Part shown: positions 6,189 through 11,218 of the stretch, one piece after another
How the letters are laid out: every line of letters starts with the position of its first letter
How positions within the stretch are numbered: the stretch's first letter is position 1
Source: an uncultured Bacteroidota bacterium
GTDB taxonomy: Bacteria; Bacteroidota; Bacteroidia; B-17B0; Aurantibacillaceae
DNA length: 64,000 nucleotides
Assembly (NCBI GenBank): GCA_903893815.1
Contig: CAITNS010000043.1
Location: 62,001-126,000, forward strand
Direction: 5' to 3'
Notes under the pieces: generated by a model
What the model was told of the DNA's origin: nothing
The model's database searches: none
Seen by the model: the letters and a program-made list of their open reading frames with translations, nothing else
Made by a program: the position numbers and the translations under genes

Positions 6189-6458
6189 TTATTTAGATAG
6201 TAGTTTAAACTGAAATAGTTCAGATAGAGGGATTTCAAGAGCGCGCGAAATAGCAAAAACAGTACTAACAGTAGGGTTAATACGGGCAGCTTCTATACGG
6301 TCAATTTGACTGCGTGATACACCCGACTCAAAGGCAAGTTGCCGAATTGTGTAATCCTTACTGATTCTTGCTTTTTTAAGCTCAATAGCAAGTAGTTCTA
6401 TCCCCTCTTGATCGAATATTAAAGTTCGTTTATTGAGCTTGTTCCTTTGTTTATTCAC
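6189..6458 (-). CDS. XRE-family transcriptional regulator
   Basis: An 89-residue, single-domain Cro/C1-type helix-turn-helix protein. The HTH core is clear: LKKARISKDYTIRQLAFESG (helices 1-2), then VSRSQIDRIE (recognition helix), then NPTVSTVFAISRALEIPLSELF, the usual end of the domain. About 25 basic residues precede it. It has no sensor domain, as is common for phage-type, toxin-antitoxin or island regulators. A perfect inverted repeat, 9+4+9 bases, lies 31 bases upstream of its start and is the obvious candidate operator. It is transcribed away from the leader-bearing gene at 6638 and toward the kinase module. Confidence 0.88.
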   Translation of the reverse strand: MNKQRNKLNKRTLIFDQEGIELLAIELKKARISKDYTIRQLAFESGVSRSQIDRIEAARINPTVSTVFAISRALEIPLSELFQFKLLSK

Positions 6459-6510: not shown

Positions 6511-6577
6511 TTGATTTTTTAACCTATATTAGCTTTTTTAAAAACAATACTAAGAAAATGCAGACTGCAAAAAACTT

Positions 6578-6626
6578 ATAAAAAAAGAGGCGGGAACCTG
6601 AAAAGCCTTAAGAGTAGGGAATTTTA
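6578..6626 (+). promoter_or_regulatory. Recurring leader element, copy A
   Basis: A run of A, then GAGGCGGGAACCTGAAAAGCC, nine variable bases and GAGTAGGGA end about 18 bases before ATG 6638. The same arrangement precedes the genes at 8380 (almost identical) and 8972 (close). GGC and GCC can pair around an A-rich loop. It may be a 5' UTR element or a promoter-linked repeat. Confidence 0.6.
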
Positions 6627-6637
6627 AACTTAAAAAA

Positions 6638-8065
6638 ATGAAAACGATACTTACAATTTTAATTTACGGATTATCTCTAAATACTTTTGCCCAAAAACTC
6701 GTAAAAACATACTACGATTATCGCAACACGAAAATTCAATCAGAATATTACACTGACGCCTACGGAGTAAAGAACGGTACTTATAAAGGATATTCCGAGT
6801 ACGGTGGCATATTGCTACAAGGATCATATAAAGATGATGCACCGATTGGAAAATGGACAGAAAATTACTTAGATGGTAAACTACATTTTATAAAAACTTA
6901 TACCTCTCCGGGTTATACGAATTTTGACGTGAAGGATGGTAAAATCATTTCATATTATGAAAATGGAAAAACGATTAAGTATGAGAGAAATTTCATAAAT
7001 GGAGAACTTGATGGCGATTATAAAACATATGATGAAAGCGGCACTTTAAATGGGGAAGGAAAATATGTAAATGGTGTTTTTGAAAGAACTGGAGAAAGTA
7101 AAAGAATATATGATGAAGAGCAAGAGAAGCTAAAACAAAAACAGAAAGAGCAGGAGGCAGCAACTCTGCAAAAGAACACTGAAGAATACAAAAACATTAT
7201 ACCAGAAGCAGACAAGGCTATAGCAGCAAAAGATTACAAAAAAGCTTTTGAATTATTCAAATCCGCATCTGACTTGCTGAAGAATGAAAAATATCCTAAA
7301 GACAAAATAAACGAAATGATTGAAACATTTCATACAAACAGTAAGTTTTTTCAGGAATATATTAAGTCCCAAAATGATACATTGGATAATGACTTTAAAA
7401 CACTAAAAGCAGACTTCAAAATAAAGAGCATTAAAGAATACAATAAATACACATACACTTATGATGATAAAAAACCAAGAGCATCGTCGGCCGGTTATAG
7501 TAATTGTAACTGCCTAGAACCTTGGAATGAAAAAGCATATAACGCATTGATTTGTTTTGATTTAAACAAAGAATTTTACGAGCCTTATCAAAGAGCAATT
7601 ACGGAGGCTTATTTTAAATATGATGAAGCTTTAACAAAGGAAGAAGGTAATGTTAAAAGGTCAAATTTTAGTTTCTACTTTGAGCAGACAAATAATCAGT
7701 TTTACACCTACGACAAGACTACTTTTTTGAATAATCTTAAAGTTGAAAAGGAAAATTTTGAGTCCAGTAAATCGGTAAAAACAAATTACTTAAAAGCAGT
7801 AGATAACAAAGTTAACATCACAAACTTAAACGACCAAAACAAAAAGAAGACCTTATTAAAAAAATACTTAATTGTGTATGAAGACTTTATTTTTAAAATC
7901 AACGCATATCCTGGTTTAACTGAAACAATCTCTCTATTAAAATCATTAAACTCTATTTCTGATAATGTAGTGGCTTTATATAGTCAAGAAACAAAGGATA
8001 TGGAGAAAAAATTAAAAGATGCTGAAACTTCAGAACAAATACAAGCTATGATACTCGGACAATAA
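6638..8065 (+). CDS. Secreted YwqK/MORN-like repeat protein with helical C-terminus
   Basis: A 475-residue protein with a Sec signal peptide (MKTILTILIYGLSLNTFAQ). Residues 20-165 carry several copies of the MORN-like repeat of the YwqK family (NGTYKGYSEYGG, PIGKWTENYLDGK, DGDYKTYDESG, NGEGKYVNG). A strongly charged coiled coil follows (EEQEKLKQKQKEQEAATLQK, about 160-185), then a long helical domain with TPR-like character. YwqK-type repeats are often annotated as antitoxin-related, but here the signal peptide argues for an envelope protein and I see no toxin partner. The gene is preceded by leader copy A, and its first 20 codons resemble those of the gene at 8380, which suggests a shared 5' cassette. 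Confidence 0.78.
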   Translation: MKTILTILIYGLSLNTFAQKLVKTYYDYRNTKIQSEYYTDAYGVKNGTYKGYSEYGGILLQGSYKDDAPIGKWTENYLDGKLHFIKTYTSPGYTNFDVKDGKIISYYENGKTIKYERNFINGELDGDYKTYDESGTLNGEGKYVNGVFERTGESKRIYDEEQEKLKQKQKEQEAATLQKNTEEYKNIIPEADKAIAAKDYKKAFELFKSASDLLKNEKYPKDKINEMIETFHTNSKFFQEYIKSQNDTLDNDFKTLKADFKIKSIKEYNKYTYTYDDKKPRASSAGYSNCNCLEPWNEKAYNALICFDLNKEFYEPYQRAITEAYFKYDEALTKEEGNVKRSNFSFYFEQTNNQFYTYDKTTFLNNLKVEKENFESSKSVKTNYLKAVDNKVNITNLNDQNKKKTLLKKYLIVYEDFIFKINAYPGLTETISLLKSLNSISDNVVALYSQETKDMEKKLKDAETSEQIQAMILGQ

Positions 8066-8077
8066 AATCATACAAAA

Positions 8078-8242
8078 ATGACATTCATAAGAGAAGAAAA
8101 TTAGGATACGATTTGTAAGCTAATTAAAAAACTTGTTGACCTATTAAAAAATGGGGCATCATCATTAACTAAGAAAAATAGGCCGCAATTGCAAATAGAA
8201 TAACGAAAACTTAATAGAATATTGGAGCAAATAAATCGTTAA
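8078..8242 (+). pseudogene. Possible remnant of a small gene
   Basis: Within the 314-base gap between the genes at 6638 and 8380, one frame beginning at ATG 8078 reads as a coherent Lys/Leu-rich helical peptide (DTICKLIKKLVDLLKNG, later RKLNRILEQINR) interrupted by in-frame stops TAG at 8102 and TAA at 8198. It could be a decayed gene or chance. The rest of the gap holds a GCCCA/TGGGC inverted repeat (8245-8269) and leader copy B. Confidence 0.25.
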
Positions 8243-8305
8243 AAGCCCAAACAATGAGAGAGGCTGGGCATAAAATATTATTTAAAATGAATAACTAATG
8301 TGGAC

Positions 8306-8362
8306 AACAAAACCACTTTAAAAAAAGAGGCGGTAACCTGAAAAGCCATACGAGTAGGGAAA
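8306..8362 (+). promoter_or_regulatory. Recurring leader element, copy B
   Basis: Almost identical to copy A: a run of A, then GAGGCGGTAACCTGAAAAG and CC, nine bases, and GAGTAGGGA, ending 17-20 bases before ATG 8380. In addition a small hairpin, GTGG-9 nt-CCAC (about 8301-8317), precedes the A run. Similarity to copy C extends further upstream (ATTTAAAATGA), indicating that more than 100 bases were duplicated. Confidence 0.6.
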
Positions 8363-8379
8363 ATTTAAATTAAAGAAAA

Positions 8380-8838
8380 ATGAAAACGATTTTAACAATT
8401 GCAGTTTTAGCTTTATCTATTAATGCGTTTGCACAAAAAAAACATCCAAAAGTTACAAGCGAAAGTGTTACAAAAAAAAACATGTTAGATAGAAAAACCC
8501 ATCCAAATAGCGAAATTATTGATTTCCAATTTGGAGATGGAATTTCTTGTCACATGGTCAAAAAAGATGATACTTGGTATAACTATAATATTAGAGGCGA
8601 AGAAAAGGAAAACCCTTTTGAATCAAAAGAAGCGGGGCTCCAAAAAATATGGAGTGATGCAGTAAAAATGGAAGCAGTTGGTGCAGCGGCAGCAGGAACC
8701 GTTATTAAAGGGAAACAAAAAAGAGAAGGAACAGAGGGTAAAATTGGAGTTGACAAACAGGGCAAAGAATATAAAATAACAAGTGGTCAAAAAGTATATA
8801 CAAAAAACGCTTATTTACCAACAAGAACAACGAAATAA
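8380..8838 (+). CDS. Small secreted protein of unknown function
   Basis: A 152-residue protein with a Sec signal peptide (MKTILTIAVLALSINAFAQ) nearly matching that of the gene at 6638. I do not recognise the mature part. It is basic, with a central Ala-rich stretch (VGAAAAGTVIKGKQKREG) that could be a short amphipathic helix or flexible linker, and a C-terminal segment GKEYKITSGQKVYTKNAY. There is no sorting domain or lipobox. It is preceded by leader copy B and followed after 133 bases by a third leader-bearing gene in the same direction. Its role is unknown; its membership of the leader-linked group is the main clue. Confidence 0.65.
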   Translation: MKTILTIAVLALSINAFAQKKHPKVTSESVTKKNMLDRKTHPNSEIIDFQFGDGISCHMVKKDDTWYNYNIRGEEKENPFESKEAGLQKIWSDAVKMEAVGAAAAGTVIKGKQKREGTEGKIGVDKQGKEYKITSGQKVYTKNAYLPTRTTK

Positions 8839-8898
8839 ACTTTAAACATAATTAAATCAAATTTGATCATGTTAATGATTTTATTTAAAATGATGATA

Positions 8899-8952
8899 CC
8901 AAAACCAATTTAAAAAATGGGGCGAAACCGAAAAGCCAAATGAGTAGGAAAA
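8899..8952 (+). promoter_or_regulatory. Recurring leader element, copy C
   Basis: CAAAACCAATTTAAAAAATG, then GGGCGAAACCGAAAAGCC, nine bases and GAGTAGGAA, upstream of ATG 8972. Compared with copies A and B it has lost one base between ACC and GAAAAGCC, yet the outer GGC/GCC words and GAGTAGG are unchanged, as if the words rather than the spacing matter. Confidence 0.55.
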
Positions 8953-8971
8953 AATTAATAAAATAAACATT

Positions 8972-9688
8972 ATGAAAAAAATAATGACAATTTTTGGAGC
9001 TATACTTTTTGCTTCATTTATCTTCGCCAGTTGTAGTGGAGGTCAAAGCGAATCAAACAAAACAACTGGCGAAACTACAAAAACAGAAGTAAAGGTTGAG
9101 CAACCAAAATCAGATAGTAAAGAAGTAATAAAAACTATTTCTGAAAAATACTACATTCCAGTTAATGAATCAAAATCAAATTTGATTTTTACTATTAATC
9201 AAAACTTAAATTTTAATTTAGTAAATTATAAAGGTAGTTTTGAAGGCAAGTACGTTGATGGCAAAGTTCAATTTGACGACAAAAACACAACAATTATTAA
9301 TTTTACTTTAAAAGGCGAAAATGTTGTTTTAAAAAATCAAAATGATGTTGAAGTTGAATTTAGAGTAACTACAGAAAATGAACTTTTGGCTGGAACATGG
9401 TACTACAGTTTAGGTGGTACTCCATTACGTATGATCTTTGATAATAAAGGCAATTGGAGCGTACCTGATGACCCATTTGGAACAAGAAAAGGACAGTTCA
9501 AAAAAACAGGTGATAAGAAATTTACTGTTCCAAAATATACAGTTGGTATAACAGCTAATTTATCGCTAAACAGTCCTACAAGTTTTCTTTTGACGTGGGA
9601 AAGTGGCGGGCCATTTGGAGTGCAAAAACTAAATCACAAAAAAGCACAGAAATCTAAAATGCAATCTCTAAACCAACTTTTCAACTAA
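8972..9688 (+). CDS. Lipoprotein of unknown function
   Basis: A 238-residue protein with a lipoprotein signal peptide (TIFGAILFASFIFASC, lipobox FASC, acylated Cys about 21), followed by a Gly/Ser/Lys/Thr-rich linker. The mature domain is beta-rich (repeated strands, with LAGTWYYSLGGTPLRMIFD and NWSVPDDPFG), reminiscent of lipocalin-like domains of Bacteroidota lipoproteins, though I cannot prove the fold. The first 20 residues are nearly the same as in the lipoprotein at 10069, while the mature parts are unrelated. The C-terminal tail (HKKAQKSKMQSLNQLFN) is unusual and abuts a decayed gene, so the original 3' end may have changed. Confidence 0.7.
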   Translation: MKKIMTIFGAILFASFIFASCSGGQSESNKTTGETTKTEVKVEQPKSDSKEVIKTISEKYYIPVNESKSNLIFTINQNLNFNLVNYKGSFEGKYVDGKVQFDDKNTTIINFTLKGENVVLKNQNDVEVEFRVTTENELLAGTWYYSLGGTPLRMIFDNKGNWSVPDDPFGTRKGQFKKTGDKKFTVPKYTVGITANLSLNSPTSFLLTWESGGPFGVQKLNHKKAQKSKMQSLNQLFN

Positions 9689-9694
9689 GCGCCA

Positions 9695-9925
9695 ATGGCA
9701 AAAGAGCAAACAGGCATATTGGGTGAGTTTTGGTTTTTCAGTCAACTTCAGCGATTAGGTTCTGAAGCCTAAATCAATCTTGGTGAAACAAAAGGCATTG
9801 ACATTTCACTTAAACTCAACAATCAACATATTCTGAATTTTGAGGTGAAAAGCAAAATGAATTTTGTTGGCTCGTTTTGGAACTTGAATATGAAAAATGG
9901 CCTAGTATGCGTGTTCGCTGTGTAA
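9695..9925 (+). pseudogene. Decayed nuclease-like gene fragment
   Basis: One frame starting at ATG 9695 reads MAKEQTGILGEFWFFSQLQ and continues to a TAA at 9770, then stays open in the same frame (NLGETKGIDISLKLNNQH, ILNFEVKSKMNFVGSFWN) to TAA 9923. The arrangement GEF-FF-QLQRLG-EA, then TKGIDI, then FEVKSK resembles small PD-(D/E)xK-type restriction-like proteins (Glu, then Asp, then Glu-x-Lys). The in-frame stop and early end mark it as broken. It fills most of the 380-base gap before the gene at 10069; the remainder is AT-rich with leader copy D. Confidence 0.6.
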
Positions 9926-10000
9926 AGGATTAGAAAAAGACTTGCTAAATATATTTAATTACTTTAAGATATGGTTGCAAAAAGATTTCTGAATTAAAAA

Positions 10001-10058
10001 GTGGAGTCCAGAACCCACTCTAAAAAACGGAACGTAAATAATAAAAGTGGCGACTACG
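10001..10058 (+). promoter_or_regulatory. Diverged leader element, copy D
   Basis: The GTGG-10 nt-CCAC hairpin and the following run of A resemble copy B, but the GGCGG/GAAAAGCC/GAGTAGG words are degraded to CGGAACG, AATAAAAGTGGCG and ACTACGCA. It precedes ATG 10069, whose signal peptide matches that of the copy C gene, so it is likely an older copy. Confidence 0.35.
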
Positions 10059-10068
10059 CAAATACAAA

Positions 10069-10848
10069 ATGAAAAAATTATTGACAATTTTCGGAGCAAT
10101 ATTATTTGCTTCAACAATTTTAACGAGTTGCGGTGGTGGAGAAAATAAAGATGAAATTGCCAAGATAAAACCTAATAAGGTTGAAATATTAGGAGATTTT
10201 GCCGACAATTTACAAGTAATTGATCGTGATTATGAAATAAGTCCTGATGGTAAACTTGCAATAAAAGTAAAATATATTGATTATTTTATGGAAAATGAAA
10301 ATGACAAATATGAAATGACGATTTCATTACTTAATGAAGATGGAATGCCTGTTGCAGGATCTGGATATTTTAAAATGGATGATATTTCACAAACCAAGCT
10401 TCATACACTACTAGCAAATGCAATTTTTGAAGCAGATGGCAATACTTTGAAAAAGGGGCAAGAGGAAATCCTTCAATTTGTAGCTGCTTTTGGTGCATAT
10501 AATGCAAAAGAACACGCGGGAAAAGTAAAAACGTTTTCTGTTTCCAGCACAATTAAAAAAGACGAGAAAACTACTGTTTCATCTGCCGCAGAGCCAGAAA
10601 GCAGTTCAACTTCCAGCAATACAGATTGTGCCCAATTCATCAAAGATTATTCAGATTTTGCAGACAGTTACATTGCAATTCTTAAAAAGTACAAAGCCAA
10701 TCCAACAGACGCAAGCATTCTTAGTGAATATACAGAAGTTGCCCAAAAAGCAATGGATATGCAGAGAGATGCTTCAAGTTGCACAGACCCAGCTTATGCT
10801 TCCAAATTAATGCAGATTGCAAATAAAATTGCACAAGCAGCAATGTAA
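10069..10848 (+). CDS. Lipoprotein of unknown function
   Basis: A 259-residue lipoprotein: signal peptide containing TIFGAILFASTILTSC, lipobox LTSC, then GGGENKDE. The middle part is a small alpha/beta domain. A Ser/Thr/Glu-rich linker (SSAAEPESSSTSSNT) separates it from a helical C-terminal domain of about 75 residues with two Cys (DCAQFIKDYSDFADSY and SSCTDPAYASKLMQ) that could form a disulfide. The helical C-terminal domain resembles small Bacteroidota lipoproteins that I remember sharing this same signal peptide. It is the last of the four leader-linked genes. I assign no function. Confidence 0.72.
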   Translation: MKKLLTIFGAILFASTILTSCGGGENKDEIAKIKPNKVEILGDFADNLQVIDRDYEISPDGKLAIKVKYIDYFMENENDKYEMTISLLNEDGMPVAGSGYFKMDDISQTKLHTLLANAIFEADGNTLKKGQEEILQFVAAFGAYNAKEHAGKVKTFSVSSTIKKDEKTTVSSAAEPESSSTSSNTDCAQFIKDYSDFADSYIAILKKYKANPTDASILSEYTEVAQKAMDMQRDASSCTDPAYASKLMQIANKIAQAAM

Positions 10849-10978: not shown

Positions 10979-11218
10979 TTGCAACAAATAGGCGATAACA
11001 TTCGTAAAGAGCGAATAAAAAAAGGCTACACGCTTGCTGGCTTAGGTGAAGATATTGGCTTAGATAAATCTAACATGCATAAAATAGAACAGGGTAAAAA
11101 TATTACTCTAATAACCTTATTAAAAATTGCCGCTTTTTTAGAAATTCATCCAACAAAATTATTTTCTCAAACATCGGAAGTCACTATCCAAGATGTTGAG
11201 AATTATAATTCGCAATAA
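10979..11218 (+). CDS. XRE-family helix-turn-helix protein
   Basis: A 79-residue Cro/C1-type HTH protein: IGDNIRKERIKKGYTLAGLG, then EDIGLDKSNMHKIEQGKN and ITLITLLKIAAFLEIHPTKL. The HTH is complete. The only start in this frame is TTG 10979, since there is no ATG between the upstream in-frame stop (10946) and the HTH. The unusual start and the adjacent TerB remnant suggest that the original 5' end was lost in a deletion or that the gene is read through a frameshift. It converges on pepT with one base between the stop codons. Confidence 0.7.
   Translation: MQQIGDNIRKERIKKGYTLAGLGEDIGLDKSNMHKIEQGKNITLITLLKIAAFLEIHPTKLFSQTSEVTIQDVENYNSQ

Follow-up and report, generated by a model that had tools for sequence, protein, structure and literature searches.

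DUF805 RNA (RF03081) and DUF805b RNA (RF02914) are typed in Rfam as cis-regulatory RNAs with a consensus of two hairpins, and lie upstream of Bacteroidota genes. The leaders described here agree with them in sequence, in the two-hairpin consensus and in their position upstream of genes. They precede four neighbouring genes in a 64,000-nucleotide stretch of DNA from an uncultured member of the Aurantibacillaceae (Bacteroidota; contig CAITNS010000043.1, positions 62,001 to 126,000; hereafter the window). On sequence grounds they are members of DUF805 RNA, which forms one clan (CL00115) with DUF805b, and not a new class. The consensus given by cmscan for DUF805 RNA has two hairpins and no knots; covariance models hold none, and the source alignment may still contain them. 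The copies analysed here differ in having two supported pseudoknots, a third in long variants, and a range that reaches Proteobacteria. DUF805b has a minimal model without the 5' hairpin, and some of the present copies are likewise without it.

Neither a function for DUF805 RNA nor a precedent for two pseudoknots was found in the literature searched, which did not include the original description of the family. That description is reportedly by Weinberg et al. in 2017. Of the names RF03081, RF02914, DUF805b and 'DUF805 motif', RF02914 alone occurs in the literature searched, in one machine-learning study. None of the papers mentioning DUF805 concerns the RNA, to judge by their titles and the starts of their abstracts.

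A preliminary description of this DNA suggested a new regulatory RNA or promoter element, or a recombining cassette; it named Flavo-1 as a family to search and found some words only vaguely like cyclic di-GMP (c-di-GMP) riboswitches. A cis-regulatory RNA with phylum-wide compensatory changes is what the comparison supports, but it is already in Rfam and does not behave as a promoter. The c-di-GMP-I riboswitch (GEMM) also occurs in many copies before varied genes. Its likeness to the leaders is confined to the vague GAAAAGCC/GTAGG words, and it gives no Rfam match to them. Neither Flavo-1, nor c-di-GMP riboswitches, nor any ligand-binding family is among the Rfam matches of the window; by this test the leaders are neither Flavo-1 RNAs nor c-di-GMP riboswitches.

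The H-type pseudoknot riboswitches preQ1-I, SAM-II and SAM-V consist of a hairpin, a loop strand, an A-rich linker and a downstream strand near the start codon. As in these, a hairpin loop in DUF805 RNA pairs with a downstream strand, here judged by covariation only. DUF805 RNA differs from them in having no known ligand, two or three knots in series, and a downstream strand about 20 nucleotides from the start codon that holds no ribosome-binding site. Integron-type cassette arrays share with the element a constant module, variable payloads and, in some genomes, a tandem arrangement. In contrast to such arrays, the DUF805 module precedes the start codon at a near-constant distance, evolves as RNA, and is present as a single copy in 27 of the 50 family genomes with a match.

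Identity and pseudoknots of the leaders

The Rfam scan of the whole window places RF03081 at 8887-8954 and 8295-8365, both above the gathering threshold of 51.1 bits. A loose-threshold scan adds 9996-10065 (RF03081) and 6587-6620 (best as DUF805b). With the copies numbered by position, two of the four (3 and 2) pass the RF03081 threshold, and 4 and 1 fall under it. Copies 1, 2 and 3 are all under the RF02914 threshold of 35.6 bits; another copy in the host genome, on C55, exceeds it (37.6 bits). A covariance model, R1, built from 66 copies (60 from relatives, four from elsewhere in the host genome and two from the window), finds the four leaders as strong matches (Table 1); copies 2 and 3 are in the model by construction and copies 1 and 4 are outside it. 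Three weaker R1 matches in the window have E-values of 0.026 to 0.6. The candidate fifth copy among them (39814-39726, minus strand, E 0.026) was rejected, lying within coding sequence.

The common leader first described before the genes at 6638, 8380 and 8972 is evident in the DNA. The window holds three exact occurrences of GAAAAGCCNNANGAGTAGG, at 6600, 8340 and 8930, always on the plus strand. With up to three mismatches allowed, the same three sites alone are found; shuffled sequences give an expectation of 0.35, and 2 of 100 shuffles gave three matches. The leaders at 6557-6638 and 8297-8378 are direct repeats with 79% identity over 82 nucleotides, and 6582-6628 and 8912-8958 are 87% and 77% similar, respectively, to 8322-8368 in the direct-repeat comparison. 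Chance similarity of the leaders is rejected by the shuffle counts and the covariance-model matches.

Covariation supports two pseudoknots besides the hairpin stems P1 and P2. In pseudoknot 1 (PK1), CC in the P1 loop pairs with the GG of ACGG directly 5' of P2; in pseudoknot 2 (PK2), CC or CU in the P2 loop pairs with the last GG or AG of GAGUAGG or GAGUAAG. Alignment A1 holds 66 host-family copies. Alignment A5 holds 79 distinct rows, mainly phylum-wide and aligned to P1 and P2 only, and includes five added loci (three from Pseudomonas, one from Flavobacterium and one from a viral contig). In both, the highest corrected mutual information falls on P1, P2 and three further pairs, those that define PK1 and PK2. 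The three pairs have z values of 12.2 (46-64), 8.7 (15-37) and 8.0 (16-36) in A5, and the best pair outside the model has 5.1.

A5 columns 59-117 hold CG 49, UA 22 and UG 4 times, columns 15-47 hold CG 47, UA 8, UG 4 and AU 2 times, and columns 16-46 hold CG 59, UG 3, AU 2, UA 2 and GU 1 times. The proportion of paired cells is 93.4% for PK1 and 83.3% for PK2 in A5, and 95.4% for PK1 and 94.7% for a two-pair PK2 in A1. Compensatory changes, whose absence would have counted against the preliminary description, are frequent: on the pseudoknot pairs alone A5 has 46 both-sided changes, where shuffles give 12.0 and not one in 500 gets that high, and slid controls have 1 to 24. Parsimony gives 14, 14 and 20 state changes for the three pairs in A5 and 11, 15 and 22 in A1, on trees that were built without the two tested columns and, being so short, are rough. 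Because the state of the pairs has changed many times on these trees, the covariation does not reflect one inherited change. A wider set of copies was retrieved by an exact word containing GAGUAGG, and for that reason was left out of the PK2 statistics. The comparative data show selection at the RNA level on four helices, namely P1, P2 and the two that form the pseudoknots.

In copies of about 93-99 nucleotides a further hairpin stands between PK1 and P2, and its loop pairs with the segment adjoining P2 (PK3). Examples are UUCCAUU with AAUGGAA, UCAACG with CGUUGA, and CCCGC with GCGGG. Some other copies have the third knot in place of PK1. Each of 33 variant copies forms at least three pairs between its own loop and segment, with a mean score of 12.6 against 7.6 for exchanged partners and no permutation of 2000 as good; these copies were chosen by eye because a third hairpin, or one replacing another, could be seen in them, and others were omitted, so that the swap test controls for the letters and not for the choice. 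The 27 distinct variant loops likewise give 0 of 2000. An automatic knot search is clearly above shuffles for part of its rows only, and in the DUF805b-like copies, including the rhodopsin leaders L365 and L366, neither PK1 nor the third knot is clear. P2 with PK2 is the most constant part of the element, and the 5' knots appear exchangeable.

Distribution and downstream genes

A covariance-model search of other genomes, as had been suggested, gave further matches. The host genome has 11 matches at E <= 0.001, six of them over threshold. In the host family the element is found in 50 of 87 genomes (41 over threshold) with 128 matches, of which 113 were carried forward and 15, mostly weak, were dropped. 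A Bacteroidota sample that includes the host genome has it in 57 of 296 genomes (43 over threshold). A Gammaproteobacteria sample has it in one of 274, the seed genome itself, under stricter filters by which weak matches are lost; the proteobacterial copies look sporadic. An exact-word scan of named genomes found at least 119 stretches, and 77 of the 80 listed have a model match. Two copies are present in a genome recorded as Flavobacterium johnsoniae. Exact-word matching in IMG/VR gave 20 stretches; 10 of them have a model match, and we take the remainder to be chance.

The genes behind the element are diverse. The families include TRL, TM2, AHSA1, PixA, DUF1842, DUF5684, DUF805, rhodopsin, outer-membrane barrels, Bor lipoprotein and GYD, in a Pfam tally that lists 25 of 33 families. 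Tandem arrays with variable payloads occur, for example at G033:C69, G009:C96 and G037:C223. Tandem arrays of element and gene were also observed at L103, L101, L090, L119 and L123. Payloads there or at comparable loci include PixA, DUF1842 and a baseplate Gp10-like domain, and the leader is often of the type with a third pseudoknot.

A restriction to genes for secreted proteins does not hold in the wider set of copies. By a crude hydropathy rule for export, 78 of 103 proteins behind the element in the host family (76%) are exported or membrane proteins, against 246 of 483 neighbours (51%). In the wider set of named genomes and viral contigs the count is 45 of 84 (54%), hardly above that background. 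Pooled genes of at least 100 amino acids are enriched for such proteins (108 of 153, Fisher p 2.4e-5). Secretion was therefore rejected as a defining property of the element, the wider set being barely enriched.

Proteorhodopsin-type genes are a recurrent payload. In the 87 family genomes the element lies before seven of nine of them (L358-L366); those of G007 and G009 are without it and have near-identical N-termini. The element may thus be an optional control module for rhodopsins. Two further proteorhodopsin-type loci, L145 and L222, were seen in named records.

Outside Bacteroidota, the leader is found in three Pseudomonas genomes with scores of 64.6, 65.5 and 61.9 bits, all above the Rfam threshold, and in every case it precedes a protein of about 90 amino acids. 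The P. chlororaphis protein matches a solved cystatin structure (PDB 6i1m, E 9.4e-5), and the three cystatin-like proteins have 80%, 83% and 43% identity to one reference relative. On the Bradyrhizobium plasmid pNK6d the same leader and gene, with 86% identity over 395 nucleotides, lie among transposase genes, with the leader at 62.2 bits. Flavobacterium subsaxonicum has the leader with a 60% identical relative, and a cystatin-like gene is present on 7 of the 10 model-positive IMG/VR contigs (L125, L129, L132, L134, L137, L138 and L139, classed as viral). These occurrences point to transfer of the leader and the cystatin-like gene as a unit. A phage home for the Pseudomonas version is unsupported, as it has no match in an annotated phage collection. 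In a soil record titled Proteobacteria (L185:2622-2696, minus strand, GC-rich) the exact words precede a PixA gene; at 27.8 bits this copy is below the Rfam threshold and is left as a candidate.

Placement and possible mode of action

The distance from the end of GAGUAGG to the start codon is 16-26 nucleotides in 184 of the 221 copies with an open frame. This set derives from 237 distinct copies, 16 of them without an open frame, and the longest open frame within 90 nucleotides supplied the ATG that was counted as the start. Promoter-like words upstream of the copies have no fixed position, and no fixed upstream promoter was found with the patterns tested, among them sigma-70, a poor fit to Bacteroidota. 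Among 116 copies with a co-directional upstream gene, 12 begin within 30 and 24 within 60 nucleotides of its stop codon. With divergent neighbours 2 of 35 copies lie within 60 nucleotides, and 38 further copies have no such gene within 400 nucleotides; this test omitted 48 of the 237 copies, those with less than 400 nucleotides upstream. As the position is tied to the start codon and the element can stand inside operons, an effect on how the following gene is translated is favoured.

DUF805 RNA would act as a cis-regulatory RNA in the messenger RNA directly upstream of each gene. By comparison, it folds as a chain of H-type pseudoknots. The 5' part is exchangeable and has PK1, PK3, both or at times neither; PK2, which joins the loop of the GGC/GCC hairpin to the final GG of GAGUAGG, is usually retained. 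PK2 ends about 20 nucleotides before the start codon, which, from the size of the 30S footprint, is near its upstream edge. Each copy most probably controls 30S loading on its own cistron, with the forming or melting of PK2 as the control step, and our first guess for the trigger would be a general signal that the RNA senses on its own. From the position of PK2 16-26 nucleotides before the start codon in most copies, we infer cis control of translation initiation. A pseudoknot chain that controls 30S loading in cis, with PK2 as the switch, is the explanation we prefer, with moderate confidence. In Bacteroidia, translation starts without Shine-Dalgarno pairing, and upstream adenines and low secondary structure are favoured (PMC9976891). 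A compact knot ending at about -20 would therefore not cover the start site, and its effect on the 30S subunit could be to recruit it or to hinder it.

Several observations weigh against this proposal. The helices are short (2 base pairs in PK1, 2-3 in PK2), and the outermost third pair of PK2, with the A after GAGUAGG, is unpaired in 35 of 78 A5 rows. A nested CGG/CCG pairing at columns 38-52, 39-51 and 40-50 is formed in 58, 61 and 57 of the 66 A1 rows and has six A-U exchanges at 39-51; it is outside the 25 strongest mutual-information pairs in A1 and appears less well backed than PK1 and PK2. Within the window, copy 1 has a diverged 5' half without a canonical P1, PK1 is poorly formed in copy 2, P1 is imperfect in copy 3, and copy 4 has lost P2 and GAGUAGG, with two of three P2 pairs broken, and is without PK2. 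The start codon and Shine-Dalgarno sequence are not captured in the pseudoknot, so that occlusion is not evident, and the Pseudomonas copies have a separate GGAG further downstream of the knot. The downstream genes share no obvious pathway and hence give no hint of the trigger.

A riboswitch for a metabolite, second messenger or ion would be a ligand-specific form of the proposal, with the knot chain as aptamer and PK2 stabilised by the ligand. It is possible, though short of an even chance. The GAAAA loop and GAGUA are highly conserved unpaired letters beside short helices, several copies per genome precede varied genes, and the element is kept with its gene in Pseudomonas and on the Bradyrhizobium plasmid, as expected if it has no dedicated protein partner. 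H-type pseudoknots are present in translational riboswitches such as SAM-V and preQ1 (PMC6061858, PMC11625349). However, no coherent ligand pathway lies downstream, and the lack of ligand-binding families among the Rfam matches of the window speaks in the same direction.

Instead of sensing anything, the knots might form a constitutive leader that raises output by docking on the 30S platform or by shielding the message against decay from the 5' end. The payloads include rhodopsins and PixA inclusion-body proteins, which are often abundant kinds of protein, and a 3' edge that lies at about -20 for most copies would suit docking. Pseudomonas and Bradyrhizobium, which carry the element too, are hosts that use Shine-Dalgarno pairing, which counts against this explanation, and pure 5'-end protection is a misfit with the 12 of 116 copies that begin within 30 nucleotides of a preceding stop codon. 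Another recruiting device is made plausible by the non-Shine-Dalgarno initiation of Bacteroidia (PMC9976891). On balance a constitutive leader seems rather doubtful, and we place a self-sensing riboswitch slightly ahead of it.

If the element were an operator, bound by an RNA-binding protein or by a small RNA, its short conserved single-stranded words would be accounted for, and one genome has 11 copies; but covariation between the loops and downstream strands indicates selection on the intramolecular pairing itself, and such an operator is unlikely. A DNA element (promoter, operator or cassette attachment site) is highly improbable: the tandem arrays with variable payloads and the shared module of leader and signal peptide look cassette-like, but the four helices, two of them knotted, have both-sided compensatory changes, the spacing is tied to the start codon and not to a promoter, and single copies are common in the host family.

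To return to cis control of 30S loading by the pseudoknot chain, a more specific version can be put forward as speculation. DUF805 RNA may be a portable orphan switch of two to three serial pseudoknots, the last abutting the 30S footprint, which gates translation without Shine-Dalgarno pairing and itself senses a general signal. Self-sensing, if true, would explain why the element stays with its gene across phyla and precedes such dissimilar payloads as proteorhodopsin, PixA and cystatin. The covariation-backed knot model and the near-constant placement make the function of DUF805 RNA testable by a few point mutations, and the proteorhodopsin payloads and the conjugative DNA outside the phylum are concrete handles. 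A widespread structured leader near the start also bears on the control of initiation in Bacteroidia, where Shine-Dalgarno pairing is not used (PMC9976891, as above).

The four copies in the window and their genes

P2, the GAGUAGG tail and PK2 are retained in copies 1-3, with a third PK2 pair in copies 1 and 2 (Table 1). P1 is intact in copies 2 and 4, and P1, P2 and the tail are all intact in copy 2 only. The P1 of copy 3 begins about 50 nucleotides past the stop codon of the preceding gene. The fourth leader had been called degraded. This is right for its 3' part, and the 5' hairpin and the CC/GG pair are intact; the copy is probably decaying, with P2 and PK2 lost while P1 and PK1 are kept.

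Table 1. Leaders, their paired elements and downstream genes (window positions unless a locus is named)
Feature	Position	Strand	Details
Copy 1, DUF805-type leader	6551..6634	+	R1 48.3 bits; RF03081 36.6 and RF02914 29.6 bits, both below gathering; G6618 to ATG 19 nucleotides
Copy 1 P2	6589-6591/6605-6607	+	read by eye, letters checked
Copy 1 PK2	CCU 6597-6599 with GGG 6617-6619 (aligned register)	+	all-Watson-Crick alternative AGG 6616-6618
Gene behind copy 1	6638..8065	+	475 amino acids, signal peptide (MKTILTILIYGLSLNTFAQ) by eye; MORN PF07661 E 7e-6, below curated cut-off
Copy 2, DUF805 RNA	8293..8374	+	R1 66.2 bits; RF03081 53.1 bits (gathering 51.1); RF02914 24.9 bits; G8358 to ATG 21 nucleotides
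Copy 2 P1; P2	8300-8303/8313-8316; 8329-8331/8345-8347	+	by eye, letters checked
Copy 2 PK2	CCU 8337-8339 with GGG 8357-8359 (or AGG 8356-8358)	+	by eye, letters checked
Gene behind copy 2	8380..8838	+	152 amino acids, signal peptide; no match in Pfam, NCBIfam or PADLOC
Copy 3, DUF805 RNA	8885..8964	+	R1 70.9 bits; RF03081 59.6 bits; RF02914 30.6 bits; G8948 to ATG 23 nucleotides
Copy 3 PK1; P2	CC 8899-8900 with GG 8919-8920; 8921-8923/8935-8937	+	by eye, letters checked
Copy 3 PK2	CC 8928-8929 with GG 8947-8948	+	by eye, letters checked
Gene behind copy 3	8972..9688	+	238 amino acids, lipoprotein (MKKIMTIFGAILFASFIFASC); no Pfam match, NCBIfam sub-threshold only
Copy 4, decayed DUF805 RNA	9994..10068	+	RF03081 38.1 bits, below gathering; R1 44.1 bits (match 9994-10074)
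Copy 4 P1; PK1	10000-10004/10015-10019; CC 10008-10009 with GG 10029-10030	+	intact, letters checked
Gene behind copy 4	10069..10848	+	259 amino acids, lipoprotein; DUF6591 PF20234 E 2.4e-8, above cut-off
Pseudomonas leader and cystatin-like gene	L201:6418-6773; also L159, L196		L201: transfer RNA gene about 500 nucleotides upstream
Leader and cystatin-like gene	L367:4014-4372		Bradyrhizobium diazoefficiens plasmid pNK6d, typed conjugative

The signal peptides are alike in pairs and the mature proteins unrelated, as first noted. The product of the gene at 10069 has a signal peptide of the same type as that at 8972, and the two proteins align significantly over residues 1-40 only (E = 8e-10), with 75% DNA identity between 8967-9047 and 10064-10144. 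The 6638 and 8380 products align over the first 39 or so residues only (E = 1e-6), and the DNA likeness of these loci continues from the leader into the gene (6557-6697 against 8297-8439). The mature parts have no significant similarity in either pair.

The TIFGAILFAS signal peptide has four matches at E <= 0.01 in the 87 family genomes, each immediately following a DUF805 element; two are in the window, one is at G039:C66 and one at G040:C41. With a longer signal-peptide query in the host genome, the third-best match (C77:34456-34539, E 0.004) is also behind an element; two weaker matches, E 0.08 and 0.13, are outside that tally. Leader and signal peptide thus appear to be reused jointly in the host family with differing mature parts, which agrees with the constant 5' module and variable payloads proposed earlier. 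A recombining cassette as origin was judged insufficient, because the element is often single, stands before unrelated genes and keeps a near-constant distance to the start codon. Our reading of the joint reuse is that the 5' part was duplicated locally or copied by gene conversion, which does not make the RNA a recombination site.

A PADLOC search of the four window genes for defence genes gave no match. Small proteins that look helix-turn-helix-like by eye flank the four-gene cluster, at 6189-6458 on the minus strand and 10979-11218 on the plus strand.

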